Part shown: in pieces, positions 1 to 32,065 of the stretch
Layout: each line of letters begins with the position of its first letter
Position numbering within the stretch: the stretch's first letter is position 1
Assembly: GCA_034003325.1 (NCBI GenBank)
Contig: JAVEYW010000004.1
Location: 1 to 64,000 of the forward strand
Length of the DNA: 64,000 nt
DNA from: Desulfobacterales bacterium
GTDB taxonomy: Bacteria > Desulfobacterota > Desulfobacteria > Desulfobacterales > JAFDDL01
Direction of reading: 5' to 3'
Position numbers and translations under genes: made by a program
The notes under the pieces: generated by a model
Seen by the model: the letters and a program-made list of their open reading frames with translations, nothing else
Told to the model about the DNA's origin: nothing
The model's database searches: none

Positions 1-442
1 GCTTTACATCGGAGCCGACCAGTTCCTTGGCATCGTCGCTCAACTCATATCGTTCCCGGCTGCCGTCCTCGTTTTCAAAATCATAAAACGCCGTACCTCT
101 CGCAAACGCGCCGAAATGTTTACTCTTGAGCTCAAGGTCGGAAATAATCTTGAACATGTTATTGAAAATGCCCTTGTCATAGTTCAGATTGCCGTCATCA
201 GCGTTGGGGTTGACATTGGTGCCGCCGGCCGTATTCGCAATGATGGATTCATCCTGATCCTGAACACGATACTGCAGGCTATAGGATAAGGTGGTGTCAA
301 AGCTGGCGGTAAAATCTTCACTCTGATACAACTGCAGCGCACTGACCTGCGCGGGCTGGAAACAACAGCAAAGCATACCGGCGACAACAACAAGCAAGCG
401 CAAGCGTTTTTTACAACTTGTCCCAAAGATAATAAAATTCAT
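1..442 (-). CDS. DUF1302 outer-membrane protein, N-terminal part
   Basis: An open frame starts at the ATG at 442 behind an AAAGGAAAA-type ribosome site and runs off the left edge, so only about 147 residues are visible. The protein begins with a basic, hydrophobic signal peptide followed by a beta-strand-rich segment with the elements TLSYSLQYRVQ and DDGNLNYDKG, which are typical of the start of the DUF1302 family of outer-membrane barrel proteins. The paralogue at 14639-16195 is full length. The gene lies downstream of bssCAB in the same direction, 313 bp after bssB. DUF1302 proteins commonly travel with DUF1329 proteins in bacteria that use hydrophobic substrates; a role in taking up the hydrocarbon is inference. 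Confidence 0.8.
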   Translation of the reverse strand, partial: MNFIIFGTSCKKRLRLLVVVAGMLCCCFQPAQVSALQLYQSEDFTASFDTTLSYSLQYRVQDQDESIIANTAGGTNVNPNADDGNLNYDKGIFNNMFKIISDLELKSKHFGAFARGTAFYDFENEDGSRERYELSDDAKELVGSDVK

Positions 443-1107: not shown

Positions 1108-3687
1108 TTATTTTTCCGCCAATTCAACATCCAAATCATCAAATTGCGCCGCGCCAAACTTCTGATCGGTTCGGGCGATAATCGTGTTCTGACCATAGGT
1201 CGATACATCCACGAACCGCGCGCTGTAACCCGCCACCCTTACCAAAAGGTCTTCATGCTTCTCAGGCTCCACCTGCGCCGCTTTCATCTCCTCGGTGCTC
1301 ACGCAGTTAAACTGCACATGGTCGATTTTCATATCATGCCAGGTCTTCATATACGCGTGCCAGATATCAAACCCGTGCTTGCTGCGCATCAGCGGCAGAT
1401 TCAACCGCTGGTTCAACAGGTTGAACTTGAACTTCGAGGAATCAATCTTGCCAATAGATCTTAGCACCGCTGTCGGCCCCAGTTTATCTGTTCCCGCCAT
1501 TGGAGACACCCCGCCGTCATCCAAGGCCTCGCCGCCAAACCGGCCGTCCGGTGTCGGGCCTGTGATCGAGCCCGTAATCATATACATGGCCACATGCTGG
1601 GTTCCTACCAGCGGATGCGTCCCGGAGAAAGTGACGATGCGTTTAAATTTACCCGCCATAATATCTTCAAAAACCGCTTTCACTATGGAATCCGCATAAT
1701 CATCGTCATTGCCCCATTTGGGCGCATTGACGAAATCCAGCCGCATTTTTTCATAGCCCTCCCAATTCGCATGAAGGGCCTGAATCAACTGATCCATCGT
1801 GTATTTCTTGTCATCATAAATCAGCTTTTTAATGGCGATCAGAGAGTTACTCGCCGTAATACTGGCATGTGTCTGCATCCACGGATTCGGCAATTCCGTG
1901 ATACTCACCGCGTCAATCCCGCGCTCCACGCACCCGTCATCCAGACTTGAAAGGAAAGGCAGCTGAAGATATTTCGTCTGAAGCTTCCGGGTGATATCTT
2001 TGGCACGCCAGAGGAGATCGTGCACATAATCATTTTGAATTCTAAATGCTTCCCACAGTTCTTCAAATGTCTTGAAAGTCCTTGGGTCGCCGGTTTTCGG
2101 CCCCATCTGCATGTTGGCATAAGACCAGTCAAATCCGTCGGCCATCGTGATCTCAAACACTTTTATCGTAAATGACCCACCCCCCCCCTCGGTTCTTACT
2201 TTCTGGGCTTTTCTCCGGCCGCAGTGCCCCGGAGACATGCATAGTACCAGCGCCCAGTCCCTTGCTTCCTCCGGAGTCGCTCCAAAATCATTCACCAATT
2301 GATTGATGCTCAACTCATCGTTCTTGATTGATGGATACCCCAAACCATCCCTGATACATTCGAACACCAGTCTTTTTGTTTTTTCCCGTCCCTGCTTGCT
2401 CCACCTGAAACCGATGGAGGGCTCGGTGGTCCGGATGTTTTTGGCAGCCTCCAAGATGGCATCGGTCATGTCGTTGCAGCCGTCCGATCCATCCGCGTTT
2501 GTACCGCCAACCGTCAAGATGAAAAGATCGTTTGATCCAGCAAAGGCCGCCCGGTACTGGCGGTTTTTGCCACATCCGTGCTCGGAAATTTTCAGTCGCT
2601 CACATTCCACCAGTTCTACGACCTCTGCATGGTTCATGGGCTGGGCCGATTTCTCGATCACACTCTTCTGATAATACGGCCAGAGCACCTTGTCTTCCTT
2701 GTGCGCGTATCCGGAGGCGTAACACTCGATGGAATGGCAGACGAGATAGGTGAACCACTTGGCCTGCATCGCGTCCCGAAGCCCTCTGGCCGGTTTCGCC
2801 GGTACATGCTGGCAAATATCCGCGATCATCAGCAGCTCTTCCTTGCGCTTGGCATCCGTCTCAAAGTTCTCCGCCACGATCTTGCACAACCGGCCATGAC
2901 GCTGCGCCCAGTTGATCACCGCCTTGTCCACCGTGATCATCGCTTCCCAGTTGTCGATCTTATCGGTCAGCGGCAACCGCTCCGGACCGTTCCAGTCGGG
3001 AGCCGCCATCTCGGTCATCGCCCGCTGAATATTCTCCTCGCACATCGCGATGCGCTTCAACAATCCGTCTTCGTTCACCGTCTCGTACGGCGGCACCGTG
3101 CTGTTATACGCGTTGGCAAAGGTCGGCGCCTCCATCGTCGAAAACTGATACATCCGCTCCAGCTCTTCTTTCGTAAAATACCGCTCCCCATGCTGCGTCA
3201 GGCTGTATTTCGACCAATAATCCACAATCGCCATCGCCTCTTCTTTTTCCTCGGGGCAGTAGGGGCTGTTCACAAAATCCACAATATTCAAATGCGAGGT
3301 CTCCGGGAACAAGGGCACCTTCTCCGGATGCTCCGCATTAAAGCCCACGATCAACTCATCTTCCTGAAGCAATACCGTGCATTTATTCAATACGTTCGCG
3401 ATCGCGTCCGCACGCCGCAGCACATACTCCTTGCCCGCTGACGCCTCAAACCCCTGCGTGAAATAACGCATCCGCTCAATGCCCGCCTTCAGGTTCGGGT
3501 TTACAAACTCGCCCGCGGCCGTGTGTTTGAGCCGACATCTGGCCTTTAACCGCCTGGTCCGCTCCGTGCTCGGACGCGCCAGCGTGCTCGTCAACCGGTC
3601 GTCCGGCACCTGAAGCTCTTCCGGGTTCTCCAAGGGAAATTCGATTGTCCGTCCTTTATACTCTACGGGGTCGGCTACTCTTGTCAT
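1108..3687 (-). CDS. bssA: benzylsuccinate synthase-type alpha subunit (glycyl radical enzyme)
   Basis: This 859-aa protein is the catalytic subunit of a fumarate-adding X-succinate synthase. It adds the methyl or methylene carbon of a hydrocarbon to fumarate. The thiyl cysteine is C483 in VLCMSPGHCGRRK, the fumarate-binding arginine would be R498 in KVRTEGG, and the radical glycine is G820 in RVAGYSARF, 39 residues from the end. The blocks STERTRRLKARC, DWSYANMQMGPKTG, TGPTPDGRFGGEA and YGQNTIIAR are characteristic of the BssA/NmsA/HbsA branch rather than of pyruvate formate-lyase. The start is preceded by GGAGGTAAGGT. Nearby bbs-like and benzoyl-CoA reductase genes favour an aromatic substrate such as toluene, but xylene, cresol or methylnaphthalene are possible. 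The bssD-type activating enzyme is not adjacent. Confidence 0.92.
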   Translation of the reverse strand: MTRVADPVEYKGRTIEFPLENPEELQVPDDRLTSTLARPSTERTRRLKARCRLKHTAAGEFVNPNLKAGIERMRYFTQGFEASAGKEYVLRRADAIANVLNKCTVLLQEDELIVGFNAEHPEKVPLFPETSHLNIVDFVNSPYCPEEKEEAMAIVDYWSKYSLTQHGERYFTKEELERMYQFSTMEAPTFANAYNSTVPPYETVNEDGLLKRIAMCEENIQRAMTEMAAPDWNGPERLPLTDKIDNWEAMITVDKAVINWAQRHGRLCKIVAENFETDAKRKEELLMIADICQHVPAKPARGLRDAMQAKWFTYLVCHSIECYASGYAHKEDKVLWPYYQKSVIEKSAQPMNHAEVVELVECERLKISEHGCGKNRQYRAAFAGSNDLFILTVGGTNADGSDGCNDMTDAILEAAKNIRTTEPSIGFRWSKQGREKTKRLVFECIRDGLGYPSIKNDELSINQLVNDFGATPEEARDWALVLCMSPGHCGRRKAQKVRTEGGGGSFTIKVFEITMADGFDWSYANMQMGPKTGDPRTFKTFEELWEAFRIQNDYVHDLLWRAKDITRKLQTKYLQLPFLSSLDDGCVERGIDAVSITELPNPWMQTHASITASNSLIAIKKLIYDDKKYTMDQLIQALHANWEGYEKMRLDFVNAPKWGNDDDYADSIVKAVFEDIMAGKFKRIVTFSGTHPLVGTQHVAMYMITGSITGPTPDGRFGGEALDDGGVSPMAGTDKLGPTAVLRSIGKIDSSKFKFNLLNQRLNLPLMRSKHGFDIWHAYMKTWHDMKIDHVQFNCVSTEEMKAAQVEPEKHEDLLVRVAGYSARFVDVSTYGQNTIIARTDQKFGAAQFDDLDVELAEK

Positions 3688-3891: not shown

Positions 3892-4302
3892 TATTGTCTC
3901 CTTCCTTGTCGTATGTTGAGTACCGTGTTAGACAAAAGGCCTATCCCACTAATCAAAGTACCATTCAGGGGTGAATTACTTCTGCTGAAAATTTTCTTAA
4001 ACGTGATGCCATACTGGCGATGCTGATAGACTGCAGGCAGTCCTTCCTCTACGTAACAGGAATGCCATTCGTTAAATTTGCTATCGGCTGACTAATGCAA
4101 GATATCTAATACCAATCAATGCTTTTTGGATTGACTCAAACTGCCATCATCCGACTCGTTTTAAGAAGGATCAAATTGGTGACGCCACTCTGCGGTTACG
4201 TCACACCGCAAGGGGTGGGCAAATATCCCAGGAAATAAACGATTAAAAAGCATTTGATTTTTTATTAAATTATAATTTATAAATTGAATTCATAATCTTA
4301 AA

Positions 4303-4318
4303 TGCAATATACCTGCCA
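4303..4318 (-). promoter_or_regulatory. sigma-54 (-24/-12) promoter of the bss operon
   Basis: The minus strand reads TGGCAG-GTATA-TTGCA, with GG and GC at the exact -24/-12 spacing. The start site would be near 4291, giving a leader of about 400 nt before bssC. No competing sigma-70 promoter is obvious. Two sigma-54 activators are encoded in the window. Confidence 0.75.
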
Positions 4319-4379
4319 AAATCTATATCATTTTGTTTTTATTTAATTTATCTTAAATACAGGTATTCTAACGACTTAG

Positions 4380-4433
4380 ATCCACAACAATTTGGGGATT
4401 TCCCCCAAAATTTTTTTGGCACCCCCAATATTG
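4380..4433 (-). promoter_or_regulatory. putative activator-binding box upstream of bss
   Basis: The plus strand carries ATCCACAA, then TTTGGGG-ATTTC-CCCCAAA (an inverted repeat at 4391-4409), then ACCCCCAATATTG. The box begins 62 bp upstream of the -24 element. The same ATCCACAA...CCCCCCAAT arrangement is found 61 bp upstream of the bzd promoter and in the duplicate at 16870, as expected for a shared enhancer-binding site. Confidence 0.55.
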
Positions 4434-4688
4434 ATAAACCTAAAAACCTGCCATCACTTAAACTGATCTTTGACAGTATTTCCCCATTTTCATGTTTTTA
4501 AGTAAGATAACTTGCTGATATTATTATAAGCGATGTTTTCTGAACCCAAAACGGTAGTGCCAACAACCTATACAGGGCAATCGCAAATGTTTTTTAACAG
4601 TTAAGTATTCTTAACAAGTAGCCATTTTCCCAAGCAGCTTTGAGTCTTTTGGATTTTATGCTGCCTTTGAACGATTTTTCCTGTTTGA

Positions 4689-4805
4689 TCAGCTGTCAAA
4701 ACCTTTGCAGTAGCGTTCGGCTTTGTGACGAAAGACCAAACTATGGAATTGTCCGCGATGAAATAAAGCAACCAATTGACTAAAAAGACTCGCATGTCGT
4801 ACCAT
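4689..4805 (-). pseudogene. IS4-type transposase, N-terminal remnant
   Basis: From the ATG at 4805, with an intact GGAGG ribosome site, a short frame encodes MVRHASLFSQLVALFHRGQF and then KAERYCKGF before a stop. This matches the first residues of IS4-family transposases with a DUF4372 N-terminus (MVRH...FSQL...KGF). The rest of the protein is missing on this strand. It lies back to back with a C-terminal remnant on the other strand. Confidence 0.6.
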
Positions 4806-4839
4806 CGTGCTGCCTCCTTGTTTTTTGGCTAACGGTTTT

Positions 4840-5139
4840 GCTTGGCAGTTAAACCTGAGGGTGAAGACCTTCGTCGGGACTACCGAAAACGCCCTGTACA
4901 TTCAGATTTGGACAGCATCAATCGCCATGCTGCTGATCAAGCTCCTTCAGTTCAAATCCAAGTTCAACTGGTCGTTGTCAAACCTGGTGGCATTTTTATG
5001 CTGGAATCTCCTTACCTATCGGGACTTAGGGGAATGGATCGATAATCCCTTTGATGTCCTTCCCATAACGCCCAGGCCTGTCCATGATACGCTTCCTTTT
5101 AAAGGACTTGGACAGCACATGTTAAAACCGACAACCTGA
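4840..5139 (+). pseudogene. IS4-type transposase, C-terminal remnant
   Basis: The plus-strand frame contains LRVKTFVGTTENALYIQIWT, then FNWSLSNLVAF and TYRDLGEWIDNPF, which are the closing motifs of IS4-family transposases. There is no catalytic core and no start. The N-terminal scrap points the opposite way, so this is a rearranged insertion-sequence relic. The 970-bp interval 4463-5432 holds nothing else that I can recognise; TTTTGGACA occurs twice near 5209 and 5252 and may come from an insertion-sequence end. Confidence 0.65.
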
Positions 5140-5432
5140 TTTCTAAAATGCGCAGCAAGTGGCCATAACCTGCTGAAATTTATTTTAGCGGAAACCGTTT
5201 TTTAACTTATTTTGGACAGCAGTGTTACGCCAGTTTGATACCGTTTTTGGACAAGAGTGTAGTGAAAATTAATTTTCAGACTGTCAACGATCAGTTAAAA
5301 CACAAGAAACCGAATGGTTATACCAAAAAGAAGCTTTCTCGGCATAAATTAACTGATTAAGGAAACAGCATTGATATTAGTATCTTTTTCAACGCGACTT
5401 AGAATAATCGGATAAAATTTATCTTCCAGCGG

Positions 5433-7832
5433 TTAATTTACTGCACGCACGTCAAGCGGCTGTTCCCGTTTTCCGGTAAAAAGCCCCCGAAAACTTTCCA
5501 TCAGACCGGTCAATGCCGGCAATAAAAGGATGGCGCCGACCATGTTCACGATGAACATAAACGTGAGCAAAAGTCCCATATCCGCCTGAAACTTGATCGG
5601 CGAAAAGGCCCAGGTGGCGACACCGATGGCCAGCATCAATCCGATCAAAATGACAGGTTTGCCGGTCTCTCTCATGGCATGGCCATAGGCCACAAAGAGG
5701 GGCATTCCCGCTTGAAGATACTGCCGCATTTTAGCGTAAATATAGACGCCGTAGTCCACCCCGACGCCGACACCCAGCGAAATCACCGGAAGGGTTGCGA
5801 CCTTGACGCCAATTCCCATCCGCACCATAACCAACTGGCAGAGCGCGGAGGTCAGCATCAACGGAATAATGATGGCAATCACGGCCCCCACCCTTCGGAA
5901 GGTCAGCGCCACCAGCCCGATCGTGGTGAGATAGACCAAAAACAGCATCGTATACTGGGCTTTGCCAATGACGATATTGGTCGCCGCCTCAATCCCGGAC
6001 CCTCCAGCGGCCATTAAAAATTTTGAAATCTCGGTGTTGTTCTTGGCGGCAAAGTCTTCAACCAGGTCCACCACGGCTTGAAGGGTTTCCGCCTTATGAT
6101 CTTTTAAGTAAATCACGACCGGTGAGAGGGTGCCTTCCCGATTGCTGGCGCTGGTGGGAACCTTGATGGCGGATGCGTTGAGCGTCTGCTGATTGCGCGG
6201 CAATCCTCTCCACTTGAGGTTTCCCTCATTATATCCAATCAGAAGTGCTTTCACGGCATCCACGACGGAACTGGTCGATTGTACCCCCGGAAGCTGATCG
6301 AGCCGCCACTGAAGATCTTCCATTGCGACTAAGTTTCCGTAATCACTGTTTTTTTCCGGCGGCGTGGTGACCATGAGAACAAAAATGTCCGAGCTCGCGG
6401 AGTAATTCTGCACCATGAACAGGTTATCCAAATTGTACCGGGAGTTGGGCCTGAGCTCGGGCGCACCGGGATCAAGATCCCCGATCTTCAAATCCTTGCT
6501 GCCGATAATCCCGAAGGCGAAAAGCCCGGCCGCCACCAATACCGCAACCTTGGAGACCGTTGGCCGGGTCATTTTGGCAAAGGTAGCCCAAATGCTATTT
6601 TGCTTCTCATCCGCGGCGGGAGGAGTGTGTCCGGCAGGCGCTTTTCGAACGCCCGCATACGACATCAGAATCGGCAACATCGTCAGGTTAGTGATGATCA
6701 GAATAATGACACCGATACTGGCGCCTGCCGCCAGTTGCTGAATCGCCGGAATTTGAATGACCGCCAGCACGGCGAACCCGAAGCCGTCGGTAATCAAGGC
6801 CGTGAGCCCCGGTATATAGACTTGGCGAAAGGCCCGTTTGACGACCAGAAGCTTGTCCACCCCATGCGCCGCTTCCCTGTGCATGGCCGAAATCACCTGC
6901 ACGCCGTGGCTGACACCAATGGCAAATACCAGAAAAGGAACTAGCATGGAGTAGGGGTTCAGCCCCAGTTGCAATACACTTAACATCCCCATCTGCCACA
7001 CCGCCGCAGTAACAGAACAGAAGATCAGAAGTAGCGTGCTCCGGATACACCGGGTATAGCCAAGCAAAATGATCAGGGTGATCAATACCGCCAAACCGAA
7101 AAACAAGACGATCTTGCCGGTGGCGTCCAGCATATCCCCCATTACCTTGGCAAAGCCGACGATGTGTATCTTGATGGTGTCGCTTTGATATTTATCCCGG
7201 ACCAGCGTTTCCAGTTTGCCTGAAAACTCCTTGTAGCTTAACGGCTTTCCCGTATCGGGGTTTATTTCCATCAGGGGCACATTGACAACGGCGGATTTAA
7301 GATCATTTGCCACCAGCCTTCCGACGATTCTGGCCTTGAGGACATTGGCCTTCAGCAACTCAATTCTTGCCGGTGAGCCGTCATAGGTATCCGGAATCAC
7401 GGCACCGCCCTCAAACCCCTGCTCGGTCACCTCAATCCATCGGGTATTAGGCGTCCAGAGGGATTCAATGGCGGAACGCTCCACACCGGGAATAAAAAAT
7501 ATTTCATCCGTAACCTTGCGCAGAACATCCAGAAACTCGCGCGTATAAATATCGCCTTGCGTGGTCTCCACCGCAATCCTAACGGTATTTCCGAATCCCT
7601 TCAAGTCCTCCTTGTGGGCAAAATAATTGACAATATAGGGATGTTTGGTTGGAATCATCTTTTCAAAATTGGCATCCAGATGAAGGCCTGTCGCCTTGTA
7701 TCCAAAAAAACAGGTCGCCAATATGAAAACTACCAACAATGCCATACGATTTTTAAAAACGATCGTTTCCAACAAGGATGCTTCTTCATCCGTCGGTTTC
7801 AAAATCGCTTTTGCGTTGTCTTTTGCCACCAT
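5433..7832 (-). CDS. RND/MMPL-family exporter-like membrane protein
   Basis: A 799-aa protein with the two-fold layout of small RND/MMPL transporters: one membrane helix near residues 30-50, a large soluble loop, a bundle of helices near 230-420, a second soluble loop and a second bundle near 620-790. The motifs GVSHGVQVISAMHR and GVGVGVDYGVYIYAKMRQ are the conserved segments of this COG1033-like family. It follows the BNR-repeat gene directly, the TAA of one being next to the ATG of the other, so the two are co-translated. Such transporters often sit with DUF1302, DUF1329 and BNR-repeat genes, and a role in moving hydrophobic molecules is likely but unproven. Confidence 0.85.
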   Translation of the reverse strand: MVAKDNAKAILKPTDEEASLLETIVFKNRMALLVVFILATCFFGYKATGLHLDANFEKMIPTKHPYIVNYFAHKEDLKGFGNTVRIAVETTQGDIYTREFLDVLRKVTDEIFFIPGVERSAIESLWTPNTRWIEVTEQGFEGGAVIPDTYDGSPARIELLKANVLKARIVGRLVANDLKSAVVNVPLMEINPDTGKPLSYKEFSGKLETLVRDKYQSDTIKIHIVGFAKVMGDMLDATGKIVLFFGLAVLITLIILLGYTRCIRSTLLLIFCSVTAAVWQMGMLSVLQLGLNPYSMLVPFLVFAIGVSHGVQVISAMHREAAHGVDKLLVVKRAFRQVYIPGLTALITDGFGFAVLAVIQIPAIQQLAAGASIGVIILIITNLTMLPILMSYAGVRKAPAGHTPPAADEKQNSIWATFAKMTRPTVSKVAVLVAAGLFAFGIIGSKDLKIGDLDPGAPELRPNSRYNLDNLFMVQNYSASSDIFVLMVTTPPEKNSDYGNLVAMEDLQWRLDQLPGVQSTSSVVDAVKALLIGYNEGNLKWRGLPRNQQTLNASAIKVPTSASNREGTLSPVVIYLKDHKAETLQAVVDLVEDFAAKNNTEISKFLMAAGGSGIEAATNIVIGKAQYTMLFLVYLTTIGLVALTFRRVGAVIAIIIPLMLTSALCQLVMVRMGIGVKVATLPVISLGVGVGVDYGVYIYAKMRQYLQAGMPLFVAYGHAMRETGKPVILIGLMLAIGVATWAFSPIKFQADMGLLLTFMFIVNMVGAILLLPALTGLMESFRGLFTGKREQPLDVRAVN

Positions 7833-9005
7833 TTATTTGTCCCCTTGCTGATTATCGGCTATAGGTAAGCGTTGAGGCCCCCTCATTCCCACCATCACCA
7901 CATTGCCATCCATTGCATCGGCCACGCCGATCCATCCGCCTCCGGATTTTTGCTGCGTAAACGTGGCGGTTTTCCCGGATCCGGTTAAAATCTCACCGGT
8001 ATAGGAAACCATGATGAGTGTCCCGTCCGAACAGACCGCGGCGCCGCCAATGGTGCCGCCGGTTTTTGTTTGAATATGCCGCCAGTTTCCGCCTAAATCC
8101 GTGGAGTGAACCACATTACCGCCAAGCCCGTAGGCCAGCACATAAGGGTCATTGGGATACGCCACGATGCCGAAGAAGGTGCCTTCATAGGGGCATGACA
8201 GCTTTTCAAAATGCTCTCCCCCGTCCAACGAACGAAAGATGTTTCCAAATTCACCCGCGATAAAAAGGGATCCATTCGCCCCTGGAGTAATGGCGTTTAA
8301 ATGATTTCGATCCGGATTGTCTATTCTATCCCAGCAGGCCGTCCACGTGTTGCCCCCGTCCACCGTGCGGCAAAATTGCCCATAAGCGCCGACGACCATT
8401 CCTTCCTTATCATTTTTAAACCAGACATCCATCAGCGGCTCGCAACAAATCTTTTTATCAAGGGACCGTTGAAAATCTTCAAGCGTATAACGAAGTGCTT
8501 CCAATTCGGTGTTTAATGCCGCTTGACTTTCCGGAACGGCAGCGGCCAACGCCGCTTCTTTTTCCGCCACCAGCGCCTTCGCCAGGGTCAAGCTGGCCTT
8601 GATAATCGCCATGCCTTCCAGTTGTACCGTCCAATTCAAGCCGCCGTCATTCGAGTGCAGCACCAGCCCGTCATGGCCGACGGCCCATCCGTTTTGCGCG
8701 GAAGGAAAATACACGGCGGTTAATGTCAGACTTGTCAGCACCTCAGCCTGCTGCCAATTAACGCCCTTGTCATCGGAATACACAATATGACCGCGTTCTC
8801 CCACGGCCACGATGCGGGTACCGGTATTGACCACGTCCGTGAGCATTGATGAAACGGACTTGCCGGTTTTCATGGCCGGCCGATGTAATAAATCCGTCAC
8901 TGCAAAAAGCTGTCCGGAACCCAGAAGAGCGAATACGAATACTGCCGTAAAAAGCAGCCAACGGCGGTTAACAGGCCTTATGGTAAATGGAGTAGACTGG
9001 GTCAT
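7833..9005 (-). CDS. secreted BNR/YCF48-like repeat protein
   Basis: A 390-aa protein with an N-terminal hydrophobic signal (WLLFTAVFVFALLGSGQLFA) and repeated beta-propeller blades of the type GERGHIVYSDDKGVNW, GHDGLVLHSNDGGLNW and GAYGQFCRTVDGGNTW, as in the YCF48/BNR superfamily. A charged helical insert lies near residues 140-180. It would act outside the inner membrane, probably as partner of the co-translated RND/MMPL transporter. This pair is a recurrent neighbour of DUF1302/DUF1329 genes in proteobacteria; its biochemical role is not known. The ATG at 9005 has AGAGGG upstream. Confidence 0.82.
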   Translation of the reverse strand: MTQSTPFTIRPVNRRWLLFTAVFVFALLGSGQLFAVTDLLHRPAMKTGKSVSSMLTDVVNTGTRIVAVGERGHIVYSDDKGVNWQQAEVLTSLTLTAVYFPSAQNGWAVGHDGLVLHSNDGGLNWTVQLEGMAIIKASLTLAKALVAEKEAALAAAVPESQAALNTELEALRYTLEDFQRSLDKKICCEPLMDVWFKNDKEGMVVGAYGQFCRTVDGGNTWTACWDRIDNPDRNHLNAITPGANGSLFIAGEFGNIFRSLDGGEHFEKLSCPYEGTFFGIVAYPNDPYVLAYGLGGNVVHSTDLGGNWRHIQTKTGGTIGGAAVCSDGTLIMVSYTGEILTGSGKTATFTQQKSGGGWIGVADAMDGNVVMVGMRGPQRLPIADNQQGDK

Positions 9006-9048
9006 AGCACCCTCTTTTAAATTTTTCGAATAATGTTATCCGTCTCAA

Positions 9049-9101
9049 TAAAAAAACAGTAGCGCTCTCTCGCGAAAGCTTAACAGCTTTCACGAGAGAG
9101 C
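9049..9101 (-). terminator. strong rho-independent terminator after the DUF1329 relic
   Basis: A 17-bp stem (9064-9080 with 9085-9101, one mismatch, loop TAAC) is followed on the minus strand by a run of seven T at 9050-9056. It would end transcripts coming through the broken DUF1329 gene and isolate the BNR-RND pair downstream. Confidence 0.85.
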
Positions 9102-9111
9102 CGCTTTAACA

Positions 9112-9593
9112 TTACTGCCCCATTCTTCGAATTTGATCGGGCAGAAAGTAGGATTCATCTTCCCGCTGATCGGAAATAGGCATATTATCATAATCTGAAT
9201 AATCATAATTGACGGAAGAGATACCACTGGGAAGATCAAAATGCAGATTCATAAAAATCTGAACTCCGGGAACCTCATACGCGTGAGCAGATACACACAT
9301 ATCGGAGCGCCAGAGCGCGCCACGAGCATCGTACACATCCTGGGTAACAATCCCCCAAAAGTCCTCATCGTATTGCAAAACCCGCTTAGCGTAACTTTGC
9401 CGGGCGCCCGGTTTTACGGTTGCTTCCACCAGGCATATCCGGTGAAGCTCAAAACGAAGATATTCCGGAGCAATGTGCCCCTTTTTGTACTTCGTGGTCG
9501 GCTCCACTTTGGCCATTGACTTGTAGGAGTTGTAGGGAATGATCATCTCTTTTGTCCCCCGAATTTTCAGTCGTATCGTTTCAGAGAGCCATT
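9112..9593 (-). pseudogene. DUF1329 gene, 5'-truncated relic
   Basis: The frame from 9546 to 9112 encodes the last 144 residues of a DUF1329 protein, including PTTKYKKGHI, LHRICLVEA and YFLPDQIRRMG, closely similar to the end of the intact gene at 13161-14531. Upstream of 9546 homology continues as GSLKRYD, but a single-base deletion turns the following TGG into a stop and shifts the frame. Homology ends near 9593, 15 bp from the MFS gene, so the first two thirds were lost by a deletion or rearrangement. It still has a strong terminator. Confidence 0.85.
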
Positions 9594-9607
9594 AGGGAAT
9601 TAAGGGG

Positions 9608-10858
9608 CTATTCCGCTGTCTGATCGAGCTTCTTCCCCGATCTAAGCGCGTATGTTCCGATCAGGGCAATGCTGGCCAGGATCACCAGCCCGAGAATGAA
9701 CAGGATGCGAAATCCAGTCCAGTCAATCAGGTATCCCCAGATAGTTGCGCCGAAAGCCGCCATGAGAGCTGAAAACATTGAAATGCGCGAGTAGATTTGG
9801 CTGTACTCGCGAACACCGAAAATGGACCGGGCCATCAGCGGCACCTGAACCACTGCGCACGCATAGAATGGGCCGAACAGGAATCCGGCGACCAGAACGA
9901 TTGCAACAGACGTGGGCGCTACCCAGAGAAGCACCAAACCAGCCGCACCACAAATCAGAGCCGTCCACATGCCACCAGCGATACTCTTGTCGGCGATGGT
10001 ACCCAGGCCGACTTTACCCAGGGCCTGCCCGGCCATCGCAGCCGAAGCCAGCAAGCCGGCAAGCCCGACAACCGTTGCGGCTAGCGGCAGAGAACTCGCA
10101 TAGGAGGGCAGAAACTGATAGATAACGGAGTTAAATCCCACCAGCCCGGCAAAGGCCGCCGTCGCGAAAAACGGGCCGGACTTGAACGCCTTGGACGCTG
10201 AGACCCCCATCACGACGGGTGCGGCCGTCAAGTGGTCTTGACCGTTGTCACCGTAGGGAAGCAGCCCCTTGTCCTTAGGGAAGCTTCGAATCGCAAAGAG
10301 GGTGAACGGAAGGGCAATGGCAACGGCTAAAATTCCAAACACCCGATACCCCATCTGCCACCCATGGGTGGTGATAAGATAATCCCCGAGCGGATTGAAA
10401 AGCACCCCGCCGACGCCGGTAAACGCCATGCAAAGGCCGACAAAAAAGCCGACCCGCTGCTTGAACCATCGATTGATCAGTGTCGGCACGGCAAGGTAGA
10501 GTAAGATGGATTCCCCAAAACCGATGAAAGCGCCCGCAATGTAGAATTGCCACACGGCATTGAAAAATCCCATGGCAAAGAGCCCGCCGCCGACAAGGAG
10601 CACGGCCGTGGATAAAACGGCTCTCGCATCCCTTGCCGCCATGATTTTGCCCGCAAACGACAGGGCAAAAAACATCGTAAAACACAAGACCGTCATGTAA
10701 ACGGCAAAGGTCCCCTTGCCGACGCCCAACGCCGTACTGACAGGGGTGTAAAAAATGCCGGCACAGCTGAACGCCAGCGCCGAGGGACCCATACACAACG
10801 CTATTCCGGTGGCTACTACGAGGTAGTGATTGATATTGGACTGCTTGTTGATTCCCAC
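9608..10858 (-). CDS. major facilitator superfamily transporter
   Basis: A 416-aa protein with about twelve membrane helices, a central hydrophilic loop near residues 190-215 and MFS signatures such as FNPLGDYLI and a second-half repeat around GLGTIADK. It resembles the oxalate/formate and monocarboxylate antiporter group. The start is taken as the GTG at 10858, which has GGGGGAGG 5 nt upstream; a longer frame to 10996 lacks a ribosome site and begins with a charged, unlikely extension. Placed among aromatic degradation genes it may import or export an aromatic acid, but the substrate is not visible in the sequence. Its 3' end abuts the truncated DUF1329 relic. Confidence 0.8.
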   Translation of the reverse strand: MGINKQSNINHYLVVATGIALCMGPSALAFSCAGIFYTPVSTALGVGKGTFAVYMTVLCFTMFFALSFAGKIMAARDARAVLSTAVLLVGGGLFAMGFFNAVWQFYIAGAFIGFGESILLYLAVPTLINRWFKQRVGFFVGLCMAFTGVGGVLFNPLGDYLITTHGWQMGYRVFGILAVAIALPFTLFAIRSFPKDKGLLPYGDNGQDHLTAAPVVMGVSASKAFKSGPFFATAAFAGLVGFNSVIYQFLPSYASSLPLAATVVGLAGLLASAAMAGQALGKVGLGTIADKSIAGGMWTALICGAAGLVLLWVAPTSVAIVLVAGFLFGPFYACAVVQVPLMARSIFGVREYSQIYSRISMFSALMAAFGATIWGYLIDWTGFRILFILGLVILASIALIGTYALRSGKKLDQTAE

Positions 10859-11155
10859 TGACACCTCCCCCAATCCTGTTAAGCGTTTAACCCTGTTACA
10901 AGGCGGCCTTTTGAAAAAAGCTTTCAGGTTATAAATACACTGCCGATTGACCCATCCCCACGTCCCTGTTAACAAAACGTTCGCGCAGCAGCGCATACCC
11001 TTGAAGAAAATTGATGTAGGAGAAAAACAATATTGGTACCACGTAGGTATGGTCCAAAAGGCTGCTCACCGTTATCTTTACGTCTATCAATACGTCGAGT
11101 TGTTGCTGAAGCATCGAAACATAAGGAGGAAGCTGCAAGCTGATATAATAAGTTT
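10859..11155. other. intergenic region, no gene seen
   Basis: About 300 bp between the CoA ligase and the MFS gene. No convincing coding frame or sigma-54 promoter is seen. The ribosome site of the MFS gene is at its left edge. Confidence 0.4.
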
Positions 11156-12709
11156 TCACATCCCACTTTGCGCTTCACGCAGCAATTTCTTAATGACCTT
11201 CCCGCTGGGCGATGTCGGAAAATGAGCCACAAACTCAAACAGCTTCGGTATTTTGTAACCACCAATCAAGTCCCGGCAATGGGATTTAAGCTCATCCGGT
11301 GTTACAGTTTCCCCTTCCTTTAAGATAACCAGTGCCTTTACTACTTCCCCCCACTTTTCGTGCGGCACACCGATAACCGCTACCTGTTGAACAGCCGGAT
11401 GTTTCTGCAGGGCTTGCTCAACTTCAATTGAGTAGACATTTTCACCTCCTGATATAATCATGTCCTTAGTCCGGTCAACAATGTAATAATAACCCTCATG
11501 ATCGCAATATCCAACATCTCCGGTTTTATACCACCCATCTTTTAACACCTCTGCGGTCAACTCCGGCTTACTATAATATTTTTTAAATACTAAAGGGGTT
11601 CGCAACCAAAATTCGCCGGGTTGACAAAATCCAACTTCTTTTCCATTGAAATCCATCACCTTAATTTTTACAAAAGGCAACGGCCGACCACAGGATTTCA
11701 GCTTCGCTTCATTTTTTAAATCATGCTCTTCTGGCCGCAATAACGTTATCCCTCCACCACTTTCCGTTGTACCGTATAATTGCATAAAATCGCACTTCAT
11801 CTCGTTAAGCGCCCTTTGTAGCAATTTTAAACCAATGGGTGCCCCAGCATAGATAATCGTTTTCAAAGATGAAAAGTCTGCCGGTTCATTAATAGAGGCA
11901 TCCAATAGGAGTTCAATCATTATCGGCACCAGGACAAGCACGGACACATGGTCCCGAACGATTGCTCTTCTCATCCTGTCTGCTCGCACCTCAGGAATTA
12001 TGGACAGCTTCGTACCGTTGTATAATGCACTGATGGCAAACATAAGCCCCAACATATGAAAGTTCGGCGCTATAAATAGCATGACGTCTTCGATCGAATA
12101 GTTCACTGTTGGCTCCAGGTCTAGCAAGAGGAACCAATAATCTATCCCTCTAAAAGACAGTTCTACCCCCTTTGGTTTGCCAGTAGTGCCGGACGTATAC
12201 AGCTGAATTGCGGTATCCTCACTATTTATATCAACCATTGGCCTATTATTTTCTGAAAATTCAAGCCATTTTTCAATCCCATTTAGTTGGCCTCCCCCAG
12301 TATTGAAATAAACCACATCAAATTGATACACGGATAATGCTTTGATTTTAGAAATTATTTCTATATATTCGAACTCGGCAAAAACAATGGGTGCACCCGC
12401 ATCTTGTATAATAACAGATAGTTCAGCAGGAGAAAGCCGCCAGTTCAAAGGCGCAAACGTTCGTCCTGCCTTTATTGAACCAAATAAAACGTAGAAGTAG
12501 AATTCGGAGTTCTTACCGATAAAACCGATTCTCGAATGCCTGGGTATCTTTTTTTCTATCAAGGCATTTGCAATGCGATTACTTTCCCGTTCCAATTCGT
12601 TATATGTTACCGTTCGATCCTCTAACAAAAAAACGTCGTTATCCCCTCTATGTTTTGCGTGATAGCTGGGCACATCCGCCAGGGTCTTAATTTCAGGATA
12701 AATCCACAT
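11156..12709 (-). CDS. AMP-forming acyl-CoA synthetase
   Basis: A 517-aa adenylate-forming enzyme. The P-loop-like motif is YTSGTTGKPKG, the A5 motif is YGTTESGG, the A7/A8 region is YKTGDVGYCDHEGYYYIVDR followed by KDMIISGGENVYSIEVE, and the A10 lysine lies in PSGKVIKK. It makes an acyl-CoA from a carboxylic acid, ATP and CoA. The acid is unknown; fatty, alkyl-succinic or aromatic acids are all possible. It is clearly more divergent from, and by eye more AT-rich than, the ligases at 20495 and 44626, which hints at a different origin. A TGGAGG ribosome site precedes the ATG. Confidence 0.88.
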   Translation of the reverse strand: MWIYPEIKTLADVPSYHAKHRGDNDVFLLEDRTVTYNELERESNRIANALIEKKIPRHSRIGFIGKNSEFYFYVLFGSIKAGRTFAPLNWRLSPAELSVIIQDAGAPIVFAEFEYIEIISKIKALSVYQFDVVYFNTGGGQLNGIEKWLEFSENNRPMVDINSEDTAIQLYTSGTTGKPKGVELSFRGIDYWFLLLDLEPTVNYSIEDVMLFIAPNFHMLGLMFAISALYNGTKLSIIPEVRADRMRRAIVRDHVSVLVLVPIMIELLLDASINEPADFSSLKTIIYAGAPIGLKLLQRALNEMKCDFMQLYGTTESGGGITLLRPEEHDLKNEAKLKSCGRPLPFVKIKVMDFNGKEVGFCQPGEFWLRTPLVFKKYYSKPELTAEVLKDGWYKTGDVGYCDHEGYYYIVDRTKDMIISGGENVYSIEVEQALQKHPAVQQVAVIGVPHEKWGEVVKALVILKEGETVTPDELKSHCRDLIGGYKIPKLFEFVAHFPTSPSGKVIKKLLREAQSGM

Positions 12710-13103
12710 AAAAGAATACCTCCATACATATTCAATTAAGATATGCTTATTACCTTAATTGTGCAGTAAAAAATATGAAAAAGACACTGTCATTAATGCC
12801 AAGATTTTGGGCACCACTTTTGCTCTCTCAAAGTGCATGCCTTTGACTACTGAAAATATGCTAAGCTCGATTTTTTCTACTGCGTTGAGACCCGTGCCAG
12901 TATTTGCAGTATCGGCCAGTATCAATGTAATGGAATTTTTTTGTTTTCAACCCAGAAACATTCGCCAGCATCATTGATACAAAACCCTGCCAAACAGTCA
13001 GCAAAAAGACAACCAGTATCACCGCTGTATAAAAAAACAATCGACTGAGGCTAAAGAATGCTACCGGTAATTGCCTAAAAAAGCATACCATTTGCCTGAA
13101 TAA
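12710..13103. other. intergenic region, no gene seen
   Basis: About 390 bp between DUF1329 and the CoA ligase. An 88-codon frame here is leucine- and phenylalanine-rich without homology that I recognise and without a good ribosome site, so I do not call it. The ligase probably has its own promoter here, but no confident box is visible. Confidence 0.4.
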
Positions 13104-13150
13104 AAAAAACTGATAGCCCTTCAGCAAAAGCAGCGCTTCCGCAGAAGGGC
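13104..13150 (-). terminator. terminator after the DUF1302-DUF1329 genes
   Basis: GCCCTTC at 13144-13150 (read on the minus strand) pairs with GAAGGGC at 13116-13122, with an inner GC-rich loop, and is followed on the minus strand by a run of eight T. It lies just after the DUF1329 stop and separates that pair from the CoA ligase. Confidence 0.75.
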
Positions 13151-13160
13151 ATATTTTAAT

Positions 13161-14531
13161 TTAATTACCAAACCGCCTTATCTGATCCGGTAAAAAATAA
13201 TCTTCTGGTTTTCTATCGTTGTAAACAGGCAATCTTTTATGATCTGAGGGGTCAAAATTAACGGAAAGATGGCCAGTTAGCAGATCAGAGTGTAAATTCT
13301 GAAAATAAACCACTCCTGGGAGATCATAAGCATTGGTGGTAACTCCCATGTTTGTTCGCCAGAGCTTTAGTTGACCATCGTAACTATCCGCGAGAATGAG
13401 CACCCAGCTATCTTCATCAATCATAAAGACTCGTTTGGCATAACTATGCCGATGACCGCTTTTCAAGTTACCTTCCACCACCCAAACCCTGTGAATCTCC
13501 CATCGAAGATAGTCGGGATTTATATGGCCTTTTTTATATTTGGTGGTTGGCGAAACCCGATCTAACGCTTTATAACAGTTGTAAGGAATGAGCATCTCTT
13601 TTTTACCCACGATTTTCCAGTCGTATCTCTCCAAGGAACCATTGAACAGCCATGCTTCATCAAAGGTAACTGTACCACTGAAGGAGGGGTTCGGGGTATC
13701 AAAGGCTATTGTAGGCGCCATTCTCACTCTGCGTTGGCCGGTCAAATACTGCCAAGCTCGCCGCCCTGAATTGGCCATATCGACCGGATCACGCACTAAC
13801 TGAATTTCCCCTTTTCGTCTTGACGGTTGTAAATATTGATTAAAAAACAAGAAAAAATCTCCTTCGAAGGTTTCTAAACTACCGTCCTTGTAATAGTATG
13901 GGTACTGATCTTGCAGTATTGAACCACTGGATATAAGCACCTTACTATCTGGAGTTACAAGATATGCGGTATACTCTTGCGACCTTGATTCTCCCTGCCA
14001 TCTTAAAATATGATTCCAGACAATTTCCGCGCCGGTTTTTGGAATTGGAAACGGGATGCCGCCATATGCACCCTGCACATTAAGTCCTCCATCAGCCAGA
14101 TCTGCCCGGGTGGCATTTTTCAGCGTGTTCTCATAAATCCACTCGGGCATGGCGTGGGATCTTCGGGTCGGATAGACATCCAGCCTGAAGGTGTCAGAAT
14201 ATTTTTGAAGAAGTGCCTGAGTTCCCGAAGATAGATTATCTGCATGGTTTTGCATGTTCCCGGCGTTGATACTGAAAAGTATTTTATCGCTCTCATACGG
14301 ATTCACATACCGGCTGCCAGGTCCCTGGTAACCAGCCGGCGGGGTGGTCATTCCGCCATCCCACGCAGGTATTGTTCCGGCTTCATTGCCGGCTCGCTCC
14401 GCGCCGAACGGTGTTAGGGTGGTTTTCAGCTTAGCAGCTTCTTCCGCGGTCACCTTGGCCATCGCAAGCGTTGCGGTCGCCATTATTACGCCGATGAAAA
14501 AACAAAAAACAAGCAGTATTCTTTTATTCAT
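13161..14531 (-). CDS. DUF1329 periplasmic/outer-membrane-associated protein
   Basis: A 456-aa protein with a clear signal peptide (hydrophobic residues 5-23, cleavage after LAMA) and the DUF1329 hallmarks: LTPFGAERAGN, IPAWDGG, PTTKYKKGHINPDYLRWE and the ending YFLPDQIRRFG. The start at 14531 is chosen for the ACGGAGG ribosome site and the signal peptide; a longer frame to 14582 is not needed. The family resembles LolB-like folds in structure predictions and is regularly found with DUF1302 outer-membrane proteins. It follows the DUF1302 gene by 107 bp and shares its duplicated bss-type promoter. A role in periplasmic handling of the hydrocarbon or its products is inference. Confidence 0.87.
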   Translation of the reverse strand: MNKRILLVFCFFIGVIMATATLAMAKVTAEEAAKLKTTLTPFGAERAGNEAGTIPAWDGGMTTPPAGYQGPGSRYVNPYESDKILFSINAGNMQNHADNLSSGTQALLQKYSDTFRLDVYPTRRSHAMPEWIYENTLKNATRADLADGGLNVQGAYGGIPFPIPKTGAEIVWNHILRWQGESRSQEYTAYLVTPDSKVLISSGSILQDQYPYYYKDGSLETFEGDFFLFFNQYLQPSRRKGEIQLVRDPVDMANSGRRAWQYLTGQRRVRMAPTIAFDTPNPSFSGTVTFDEAWLFNGSLERYDWKIVGKKEMLIPYNCYKALDRVSPTTKYKKGHINPDYLRWEIHRVWVVEGNLKSGHRHSYAKRVFMIDEDSWVLILADSYDGQLKLWRTNMGVTTNAYDLPGVVYFQNLHSDLLTGHLSVNFDPSDHKRLPVYNDRKPEDYFLPDQIRRFGN

Positions 14532-14638
14532 TTTTACCTCCGTAAAAATTATGGAAAAACAGTTAGTGCCAAACGGCTTCACTTAATCCGTATTCTCCGG
14601 GCTGATAGCTGCAAGCTCGTAGCAGTTCGCATGAACGA

Positions 14639-16195
14639 TCAGAATGTATATTTTACATAGGCAGCAACATAATCTCTGTCCGCTTTGGCATAATCTTCGG
14701 CATCGCCCAAAAATTCCGTGTAACTGACGCCGAATTTCAAATCCAAATCGAACGTGAAATCAAATCCGACGGCGATCTCGTTTTGATCTTCCGTCCAGGT
14801 TCCGGTCAGAGCTGACATACCATTGACCTTATGCTTCCATGTAACCGGCACTTCCATGTCATAACCGGGGAAAATATTGTTAAATTTAAAAGTGAATTTA
14901 AGAAGATAGCCGCATGCGTCGGTATCAATAGTGGCCGCTAGGTTTTCCGCGTCCATGACCGAATTGTATCCGCCTTCCAACAGTACCAGCGTCTGATCGA
15001 TAAATAAAAAAGGACCGTAAGATTGATAGACGTTCAGAAGATACTGAACCACATCAAATTCCTTGAACTTCCCGCCTACTACCGAAAGCGGAAGATCTTG
15101 TCGATAGGCTATTTCTCCGCCAATGTTGGTTTCACCAATCAATGTGCCGAAGCTGGCGCCGATAAGTTTAACATCCTCGGCATATGCGAGGCGATAGGTG
15201 CCATCGGACGGATTTGCTCTGAACATCGGAAATTTCTCGTGATAATTGATATAGCACAAGTTCATTTCGGTATAGTTAAGCGCTCTGGCAAGATAACGAA
15301 GATTAACACCCCATTGGCCGCTATCGTCCGGCTCATCATCATGTACGCGTGTGTACAGAACCTGACCCGGGCCTCTCAAAAAATAATGTCCCCCCTTGTC
15401 CAATAAGTCCGACGTGCTGAAAAATGAACCGGCCGCGTCAAGAACATTCTTTTTATATTCCCATTGGTAATAGGCGGCCACGCTAAAATCTTCAATGACA
15501 TCCATTTGCATCATGGCTTGCCCGGAGGGCAAATAAACGTCTTTAAGCTCAAAACCCGGCACGTTAACTTGTGTCGCGTCGGCATAACTCATTGCGTTGC
15601 CGATTGAACCAAAGGTCGCAAGTGCCTCGCCCCAGGTAACCACTTGTTTACCGACGCGAACCATTAGATTCCGATCTGCGAACCGAAAGTCGCCGGAGAC
15701 GTATAGATCGCGAAGGTTAACCCCTCTTCCATGAATTTCCCGGGTATCATCATCAAACTCATCATGCTTAGAGGTTCTGCCGCCGACGAAATTATTATTG
15801 GTCAATGGAGAATCGTTATCATTATCTTGCGTGTACGCCTGATCGTAAAACCCGTACACGGCTGTGTAAAAAAGAAAATTTTTAAGGGTATAGGCTACCT
15901 CGGTGGATATCGAGGCTCTATTGGATGTGAGTGTTCCCTCATCAAAGTTGCGATTCCCGTCATCGCCGTTAATATTTCTAAGATTGAACGAATCCGGTTC
16001 CGTCGCGCGGTAGGATATTCCATAATTCAAAGTGGTTTTAATATTAAGTTTGGAATCCTCCGACATTTCAACTTCAAATGCTTTGGACAATGTCGGCAAC
16101 ATGCCGGTAAGCACAAGGCTGCACATCCCCACCATAACGAATTTGATTCCCCTCCTCCAAACCTGTGCCAACACCGATTTCTTTTTTTTCACCAT
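14639..16195 (-). CDS. DUF1302 outer-membrane beta-barrel protein
   Basis: A 518-aa protein with a signal peptide (basic residues 1-18, hydrophobic stretch ending near SKAF) and a C-terminal barrel signature ending in YVKYTF. The segments LNYGISYRATEPD, RVGKQVVTWGEA and the repeated acidic/aromatic strands are typical of DUF1302. The ATG at 16195 is preferred because GAGGAG lies 7 nt upstream, whereas the ATG at 16213 has none. It is the first complete gene behind the duplicated bss promoter and is separated from it by the relic of bssC. It may form a channel for a hydrophobic substrate, by analogy with other porins near hydrocarbon genes; this is inference. Confidence 0.87.
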   Translation of the reverse strand: MVKKKKSVLAQVWRRGIKFVMVGMCSLVLTGMLPTLSKAFEVEMSEDSKLNIKTTLNYGISYRATEPDSFNLRNINGDDGNRNFDEGTLTSNRASISTEVAYTLKNFLFYTAVYGFYDQAYTQDNDNDSPLTNNNFVGGRTSKHDEFDDDTREIHGRGVNLRDLYVSGDFRFADRNLMVRVGKQVVTWGEALATFGSIGNAMSYADATQVNVPGFELKDVYLPSGQAMMQMDVIEDFSVAAYYQWEYKKNVLDAAGSFFSTSDLLDKGGHYFLRGPGQVLYTRVHDDEPDDSGQWGVNLRYLARALNYTEMNLCYINYHEKFPMFRANPSDGTYRLAYAEDVKLIGASFGTLIGETNIGGEIAYRQDLPLSVVGGKFKEFDVVQYLLNVYQSYGPFLFIDQTLVLLEGGYNSVMDAENLAATIDTDACGYLLKFTFKFNNIFPGYDMEVPVTWKHKVNGMSALTGTWTEDQNEIAVGFDFTFDLDLKFGVSYTEFLGDAEDYAKADRDYVAAYVKYTF

Positions 16196-16237
16196 GCTCT
16201 TTCTCCTCTTCATGTTATGGGTTGATAAATTGTTCTA

Positions 16238-16381
16238 TATTCTCCTTAAACACACGGGCCTTGATAATCGCAACTTGCCTTTTCATGTTTACGCTCAGTT
16301 CCTCCCTCCTTACCCGGCTTATAATCGTCGGCACCCTGAAGAGCGCTGAAGCAATTACGCACACTCCACACATCTTCCCAT
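16238..16381 (-). pseudogene. decayed copy of bssC
   Basis: From the ATG at 16381 the frame reads MGRCVECA and then a stop. In another frame the sequence resumes as GADDYKPGK, matching DAEDYEPGK of the intact gene, and then breaks down. The upstream ribosome region is still very like that of bssC. This is a gamma-subunit gene inactivated by at least a stop and a frameshift, while its promoter remains almost perfect. Confidence 0.82.
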
Positions 16382-16792
16382 TATTGTCTACTTCCTTGTT
16401 TTATGTTGAGTCCCATATTATACAAAAGGCCTATCCCACTAATCAAAGTACCATTCAGGGGTGAATTACTTCTGCTGAAAATTTTCTTAAACGTGATGCC
16501 ATACTGGCGATGCTGATAGACTGCAGGCAGTCCTTCCTCTACGTAACAGGAATGCCATTCGTTAAATTTGCTATCGGCTGACTAATGCAAGATATCTAAT
16601 ACCAATCAATGCTTTTTGGATTGACTCAAACTGCCATCATCCGACTCGTTTTAAGAAGGATCAAATTGGTGACGCCACTCTGCGGTTACGTCACACCGCA
16701 AGGGGTGGGCAAATATCCCAGGAAATAAACGATTAAAAAGCATTTGATTTTTTATTAAATTATAATTTATAAATTGAATTCATAATCTTAAA

Positions 16793-16808
16793 TGCAATAT
16801 ACCTGCCA
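16793..16808 (-). promoter_or_regulatory. sigma-54 promoter, duplicated copy driving DUF1302-DUF1329
   Basis: Identical to the bss promoter: TGGCAG-GTATA-TTGCA on the minus strand. The transcript would run through the bssC relic into DUF1302 and DUF1329. Confidence 0.72.
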
Positions 16809-16869
16809 AAATCTATATCATTTTGTTTTTATTTAATTTATCTTAAATACAGGTATTCTAACGACTTAG

Positions 16870-16923
16870 ATCCACAACAATTTGGGGATTTCCCCCCAAT
16901 ATTTTTGGCACCCCCCAATATTA
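16870..16923 (-). promoter_or_regulatory. putative activator-binding box, duplicated copy
   Basis: Same position and layout as the box at 4380-4433. Here the C-run half-site is clearer and occurs twice in direct order, CCCCCCAATATT at 16892 and again near 16911, preceded by ATCCACAA and TTTGGGG. Confidence 0.55.
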
Positions 16924-17009
16924 ATAAACCTAAAAACCTGCCATCACTTAAATGGCGCAACACCTTCCGAGATTTCAGATTTTGAGGTTATTACGAAAGG
17001 ACGTATCAG

Positions 17010-22045: not shown

Positions 22046-22058
22046 AACCTCATGTCCT

Positions 22059-29553: not shown

Positions 29554-29652
29554 GTGTTTTATCTCCCTTAACCCGGCTTTGCCGGAAGCTGTTAGCTGTG
29601 AGTTCATCGCTTCAGCCATGCTGATCCAATCTGTTAGAGTGACCGCCTTCTA

Positions 29653-30432: not shown

Positions 30433-30543
30433 TTTTCTTATCCCTTTCGTTATGATCTCGTAAGTTATTCTCCGGGCGCGGGAGAACCCGCCGCACGTTC
30501 TGTCTTAAATCTTCGGGATTCATTCGTTACAAGACCACCCCTT

Positions 30544-30657
30544 TAGGCCCTTTACCAGAAACATGCACGCCTTTGCGTGTATGCTCGCCGAAGGTGAAAG
30601 ATGGCTTTTATGCATCCCAGCATCCCAGCATTCCAGTATCCGGCTTTGCCGGATTAG
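30544..30657 (-). repeat. dispersed intergenic repeat, copy 1
   Basis: A copy of the family described at 62593-62824, in inverted orientation. It contains the hairpin CCGGCTTTGCCGG at one end, the hairpin ACGCCTTTGCGT in the middle part and TAGGCCCTTTACC at the other end. It interrupts the bzd operon between bzdO and bzdP. Confidence 0.85.
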
Positions 30658-30674
30658 ATTTAGATGGTGTGATA

Positions 30675-32018: not shown

Positions 32019-32065
32019 GTTTTTATCCTCCATTTTGGCATATCAATTCCAATGATAATTTAATT

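Follow-up and report, generated by a model that had tools for sequence, protein, structure and literature searches.

In a 64,000-nucleotide stretch from the genome of a Desulfobacterales bacterium, an anaerobic degrader of hydrocarbons (assembly GCA_034003325.1, contig JAVEYW010000004.1, positions 1 to 64,000; hereafter the window), a promoter/leader block of 531 bp occurs twice, once in front of the benzylsuccinate synthase genes bssC, bssA and bssB (copy A) and once in front of a dead bssC followed by genes resembling the Ame membrane efflux system (copy B). The explanation that we regard as probable for the whole arrangement, judging from the nucleotide sequence, is that A and B are sister sigma-54 promoters, with B heading efflux genes, that they share one activator and that gene conversion has acted on them recently. 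A and B would be two copies of a single sigma-54- and enhancer-dependent promoter with a leader of approximately 400 nucleotides (nt). Copy A would drive bssCAB, and copy B would be what is left of a second bss unit, with its bssC dead and bssA and bssB absent, and fused to ameA immediately ahead of that gene's native ribosome-binding site. From there it would head ameA-ameB and perhaps, past a terminator-like hairpin, the ligase-MFS-ameC-ameD genes. A TPR-GAF-AAA-Fis activator would bind the boxes shared by the promoters, inducing together Bss activation, ring reduction by Bzd and export or tolerance through Ame, and the cell would probably switch on its attack on toluene and its self-protection at the same time. 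Coordinates of all these features are collected in Table 1.

The duplicated block and its exact tract

The two blocks and their flanks were aligned, as the original prediction had proposed, and an exact tract was found between diverged homologous flanks. The near identity that had been claimed was confirmed, 523 of the 531 positions being equal without gaps on the minus strand, which is the direction of all genes concerned. All eight mismatches were confined to 56 bp at the upstream end of the block and were mostly one-base shifts (52/55 equal in a gapped alignment), leaving an uninterrupted run of 475 bp. Downstream of this tract, the last part of the leader was equal at 33/40 positions, and the similarity reached into bssC, to about 3832 in A and 16321 in B (95.9% overall by blastn). 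The copies are direct repeats 12.5 kb apart.

No third copy of the block was found in the 4.62-Mb genome, nor was the block found in the PLSDB plasmid collection; with two genome copies only and none in PLSDB, a multicopy mobile element was ruled out. Among 194 genomes of the order no relative carried the block, and only short matches were obtained, the two best at bssC. The leader matched no Rfam family and its folding showed no RNA stability or structure beyond chance (z 0.42), which together ruled out a structured RNA; remains of bssD within the leader were also ruled out, as there was no significant match. An insertion sequence remnant at 4463-5432 adjoins copy A; it has relatives on contigs C12 and C15, and another relative (78%) follows the bss operon of Desulfosarcina widdelii.

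The 475-bp tract held no differences, versus 10 in 95 aligned bases of the non-coding flanks (Fisher p = 1e-8) and 44 in 155 in bssC (Fisher p = 9e-30). An exact tract bounded by diverged homologous flanks (52/55, 33/40 and 71.6% in bssC) is what conversion leaves, and not what a freshly inserted copy would. We therefore infer recent gene conversion between direct repeats, which would account for the identity far better than selection: since the diverged homologous flanks lie on both sides, selection alone is insufficient and either gene conversion or merging by the assembler is needed. The original prediction had left the choice between a selected and a homogenised promoter; homogenisation gained support for the 475-bp tract, whereas selection did not for the leader of about 400 nt, given 0/475 differences. 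Selection on approximately 40 bp and conversion over the tract can both be true. It is also possible, and we suggest it tentatively, that a concerted evolution is at work, in which sigma-54 promoters in direct repeat are repeatedly homogenised, so that the efflux operon stays tied to the hydrocarbon activator while the relics decay.

That a functional promoter and leader were held identical by purifying selection alone since an old duplication appears highly improbable. The probability of 0/475 differences would be about 1e-68 at the divergence of the bssC relic and about 1e-11 even at 5%, the leader has neither unusual RNA stability nor an Rfam match, and no stretch alignable with the block was found at the second bss operon of the same genome. 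The bzd promoter described below has only about 40 bp of the block in common; these are the boxes and the -24/-12 site, however, and their presence at an independent promoter means that this part of the block is probably selected.

The block might instead have been moved recently to B in one piece, recombination at the diverged start of bssC being one conceivable route, into a place that previously had a different upstream region. Such a transfer would be distinct from the conversion of a related promoter already in place only by the sequence that stood there earlier. The 475-bp identity, the insertion sequence remnants adjoining copy A and the apparent decay of the ame cassette's own sigma-54 promoter would agree with such a transfer, but the 56-bp diverged homologous stretch, with both G-rich boxes in it, suggests that a related promoter already stood at B, and we consider the transfer rather unlikely.

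Contig ends in this genome share exact overlaps of 127 bases, so the assembly looks like a k=127 short-read assembly. Together with the fact that contigs C4, C9 and C15 all stop at the same repeated ameA, showing that repeats troubled the assembly, these overlaps could mean that the copies truly differ and were merged, or that both joins are wrong. An effect of this kind seems unlikely, because differences were kept at both ends of the block (within the 56 bp upstream, and at 7 of 40 positions downstream), and because both flanks are unique and lie on one contig, so that wrong joins would need a 12.5-kb circle. Gene conversion stays the preferred reading of the tract.

Sigma-54 sites and a third promoter of the same design

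The -24/-12 element of the blocks, TTGGCAGGTATATTGCA, comes near the sigma-54 consensus and has GG and GC dinucleotides 10 nt apart in a TGGCAYR-N4-TTGCW context, as a sigma-54 site should. Upstream of it, A and B each carry two G-rich boxes and TTGTGGAT, the boxes and their spacing being intact in B too, so the sigma-54 promoter and upstream box that had been predicted for both blocks are present. A third promoter of this design, which the original prediction had overlooked, was located at 33150-33500 of the window (33.3 kb), where it heads bzdNOPQ. The spacing between boxes and -24/-12 element is equal at A, B and bzd, as expected of activator sites that lie approximately 80-150 bp upstream and are common to a regulon. 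The pattern TGTGGAT-N50..78-TGGCA-N7-TGC gave three matches in 4.6 Mb, namely A, B and bzd (reversed control, 0), and the exact class TTGGCAGG-N4-TTGCW was likewise found genome-wide only at these three.

The bzd promoter and the bss block have in common a part of about 40 bp, made up of the boxes and the -24/-12 site, and no alignment was obtained outside the boxes. On this comparison the bzd promoter is not a recent copy of the bss block, and its shared elements are for that reason better evidence of function than the bss duplicate; the recurrence of the boxes at an independent catabolic promoter argues that they are functional. Since only three sites in the genome fit the pattern, these promoter elements appear to mark a genuine toluene regulon made up of bss, ame and bzd. 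A gene divergent from bzd encodes an enhancer-binding protein of TPR-GAF-AAA-Fis type with a sigma-54 interaction domain (33.5-36.7 kb), which is most likely the activator of the three promoters, acting through the upstream boxes.

The bzdN, bzdO and bzdQ products scored above the curated cut-offs of TIGR03190, TIGR03191 and TIGR03192. A second intact bss operon (bss2), at 178-181 kb of C4 and 82% identical in BssA, has a bssD-like activase gene upstream, an activator of its own (49% to that of the window) and a different sigma-54 site.

Genes behind the two copies and origin of the ame region

Behind copy A, bssC, bssA (a glycyl radical enzyme, 71% to D. widdelii) and bssB follow in order, as had been claimed, and bssC is intact. 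Position 1 of the window is a contig end that lies inside a further DUF1302 gene directly behind bssB, which had escaped notice. Contigs C9 and C15 each have, at a contig end, a partial DUF1302 copy 95-97% identical to this one, and C15 also has a bssA fragment upstream of its cut gene. Altogether three near-identical ameA-type genes are cut at contig ends (window 1-442, L029 9787-10227 and L030 8-448), and the one in L030, behind a bssA fragment, is a second dead bss unit with ameA left. A third bss locus also stands at a contig end (L046 15273-15738), where the last 42 BssA residues equal those of copy A with differing codons and are followed by bssB; as the 42 shared residues use different codons, C32 was ruled out as a near-identical copy of the bssA of A.

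Between the DUF1302 that follows bssB in copy A and the one behind copy B, identity was only about 34%. This is too low for the age of the bssC relic and disfavours the duplication of an ancestral bssCAB-ameABCD operon as a whole; because the ameA behind bssB of A is a different one, bss and ame probably came to be associated on more than one occasion here. Neither DUF1302 nor DUF1329 genes were found near bss in the relatives compared, and in one uncultured Desulfobacterium a bssA-like gene was followed by YCF48 and MMPL genes.

Of the bss genes, only the dead bssC lies behind copy B, bssA and bssB being absent, so that B is no bss operon; DUF1302 and DUF1329 genes that are intact follow, in agreement with the original prediction. 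Where it could be computed against the closest paralogues, the ratio of non-synonymous to synonymous substitution rates (dN/dS) of the ame genes was 0.10-0.18, indicating purifying selection; for the ligase, synonymous sites were saturated and the ratio was not computable. Genes for ameC and ameD, which had been overlooked, lie further downstream, so that DUF1302, DUF1329, YCF48-like and HAE3 RND genes occur in the order of AmeABCD, interrupted by a ligase, an MFS gene and an ameB fragment. Earlier these genes had been called uptake-type. This was not borne out, as their nearest characterised relatives are AmeA and AmeB of a hydrophobe efflux system (PMC6394551). By analogy with this HAE3-RND set they are better read as efflux than as uptake genes, and the membrane pump behind B probably expels oily compounds. 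A tripartite HAE1-type RND efflux set (OEP, AcrB-like and HlyD-like) with a divergent sigma-54 activator was also observed at 36699-44477 of the window.

Several ame cassettes are present in the genome: uninterrupted ones on C2, C12 and C13, and parts on C7/C8 and C18. C7 and C8 start with the same 127-mer (L032 1-127 and the end of L059); they were therefore ruled out as simply adjacent, this being two branches, and an ameA-like gene there appears split by an inserted element. The closest cassette, that of C12, has the intact order MFS-ameA-ameB-ameC-ameD-ligase, whereas the order in the window is ameA-ameB-ligase and then MFS-ameB'-ameC-ameD, ameB' being a 3' end. From its gene order, the region from 5.4 to 16.2 kb is best described as a rearranged head-to-tail duplicate of a C12-type MFS-ameABCD-ligase operon with complementary losses, in which the first copy would have lost MFS, ameC and ameD, and the second ameA, most of ameB and the ligase. 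This reading is taken because the identities to C12 fit (ameA 87%, ameB' 85%, MFS 94%, ameC 80% and ameD 75%) and the joint between MFS and ameB' is directly visible in the sequence. The full ameB (68%) and the ligase (63%) are less close to C12 and so may have an older or different source.

The C12 cassette has a divergent activator-like gene of its own, which aligned over 974 residues to the one in the window, as well as a sigma-54-like site, ATGGTACAAATATTGCT. Before the MFS gene of the window, the homologous sequence is GTGGTACCAATATTGTT, where the near-invariant GC at -12 is lost (TTGCT to TTGTT). This one-base difference would agree with a takeover of the cassette by the bss promoter in place of its own. 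The claim of regulatory rewiring by segmental duplication thus stood in part: a copy of the bss sigma-54 promoter does lie directly before ameA and ameB with a dead bssC between, but this was not the simple capture of a gene pair, since the whole MFS-ameABCD-ligase operon was duplicated in tandem here and then broken up.

A terminator-like hairpin follows ameB. A strong hairpin also lies between ameB and ameC (window 9064-9101, L060 8975-9100 and L061 8895-9015); it is kept in the window, C12 and C13, with a run of T in the window and C12. Its conservation suggests that ameAB would be made in excess of ameCD, and it may set the ratio of the outer-membrane and periplasmic parts to the pump. The hairpins downstream, like the death of bssC, would also suit a copy B that is a silent relic, a leftover promoter driving nothing useful. 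We consider this improbable, as the boxes and spacing of B are intact, purifying selection acts on the ame genes that follow it and no further intact sigma-54 promoter of similar strength was found before those genes.

Four points weigh against copy B as a converted sister promoter that heads the efflux genes. The short-read assembly could have merged small differences inside the 475-bp repeat, the joins resting on read pairs; two copies alone leave the number and direction of conversion events undecidable; the hairpins after ameB and between ameB and ameC make read-through to ligase-MFS-ameCD uncertain; and other ame cassettes in the genome are without this promoter.

Further features of the window are an acyl-CoA ligase gene in two copies (20519-22052 and 44650-46183, 92% DNA identity), which is a further recent duplication; an interspersed repeat of about 118 bp in both orientations, 81-94% alike (30540-30657, 46930-47037, 62593-62713 and 62708-62827); and two adjacent molybdopterin oxidoreductases of about 67% mutual protein identity, beside MoCF and FmdE genes (22059-26323).

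Table 1. Features of the window discussed in the text (aa, amino acids)
Feature	Position	Strand	Remarks
Promoter/leader block, copy A	3932..4462	-	Exact tract 3932-4406
Promoter/leader block, copy B	16422..16952	-	Exact tract 16422-16896
Sigma-54 -24/-12 element, copy A	4303..4319	-	TTGGCAGGTATATTGCA; score 27.5 of 28.5
Sigma-54 -24/-12 element, copy B	16793..16809	-	TTGGCAGGTATATTGCA, same as A
Third sigma-54 element, before bzdN	33279..33295	-	TTGGCAGGGTATTTGCT
Upstream boxes, copy A	4380..4428	-	TTGGGGGTGCCAA, TTGGGGGAAATCCCCAA, TTGTGGAT; 21 and 69 nt to next element
Upstream boxes, copy B	16870..16918	-	Each G-rich box with one extra G
Upstream boxes, bzd promoter	33355..33383	-	TTGGGGGG, 21 nt, TTGTGGAT, 68 nt to TGGCAGG of TTGGCAGGGTATTTGCT
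bssC, intact, 57 aa	3718..3891	-	81% nt to bss2 bssC
bssA, benzylsuccinate synthase alpha, glycyl radical enzyme	1108..3687	-	phmmer 1204 bits to TutD, PDB 4pkc
bssB, 75 aa	756..983	-	
ameA-like DUF1302 gene, 5' part, directly behind bssB of A	2..442	-	Runs off contig end
bssC relic behind B	16240..16381	-	Stop at codon 9, frame shifts; 71.6% nt to bssC of A
ameA-like, DUF1302 outer-membrane protein	14639..16213	-	PF06980 E 1.7e-127; 87% aa to C12 paralogue; dN/dS 0.10
ameB-like, DUF1329 periplasmic LolA-like protein	13161..14582	-	PF07044 E 6e-127; dN/dS 0.16
AMP-binding acyl-CoA ligase, last gene of C12-type ame operon	11156..12709	-	63% aa to C12 ligase after ameD
MFS transporter, first gene of C12-type ame operon	9608..10996	-	94% aa to C12 MFS before ameA
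ameB', C-terminal fragment of second ameB; deletion joint to MFS	9112..9546	-	85% aa to C12 ameB, 56% to full window ameB
ameC-like, YCF48/BNR periplasmic protein	7833..9005	-	PF14870; 80% to C12
ameD-like HAE3-family RND pump (MMPL/RND)	5433..7832	-	PF03176; TIGR00921 HAE3 E 1e-34, below curated cut-off
bzdN, bzdO, activase subunit (bzdP position), bzdQ: ATP-dependent benzoyl-CoA reductase	28663..33193	-	
Sigma-54 enhancer-binding protein, TPR-GAF-AAA-Fis HTH	33486..36662	+	PF00158 E 6e-69, GAF, HTH_8

Comparison with known systems

Regulation is known to change through the capture of promoters by duplication. To our knowledge, there are few cases in which the donor, the recipient, a dead gene between them, a decayed native promoter and a likely shared activator are all found within 37 kb. 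If the explanation holds, this would be a case, open to direct testing, of detoxification coupled to attack on a toxic substrate, and gene conversion would here keep a promoter uniform rather than a gene. A test of the putative toluene regulon (bss, ame and bzd) would need one activator and three promoters. As in gene conversion between direct repeats, a long exact tract shifts abruptly to diverged homologous flanks; here, the tract is a promoter and leader and not a coding gene.

The bss genes of Geotalea daltonii are under sigma-54 control with starts mapped by 5' RACE (PMC11497800). Both systems have a sigma-54 promoter with GG and GC at -24/-12 and a nearby gene for a sigma-54 activator of the Fis family, but one promoter per operon is described for G. 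daltonii (PMC11497800), whereas here the promoter is duplicated, one of its copies heads efflux genes, and bzd has a third promoter of this design. The bzd genes resemble bzdNOPQ of Azoarcus, with bzdN, bzdO and bzdQ above the curated cut-offs (NCBIfam TIGR03190-03192); in Azoarcus, control is reported to be through bzdR and the PN promoter (PMC6678401), whereas here a sigma-54 site is held in common with bss.

Deletion of AmeABCD in Castellaniella defragrans lowered monoterpene tolerance and raised net dye influx, which its authors read as efflux (PMC6394551). The cassette described here likewise joins DUF1302, LolA-like DUF1329, COG4447/YCF48 and HAE3 RND genes and is linked to a hydrocarbon pathway. 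Unlike that of C. defragrans (PMC6394551), it is multicopy, and the copy in the window, a rearranged tandem duplicate behind a bss promoter, carries genes for a ligase and an MFS transporter between its ameB and ameC.

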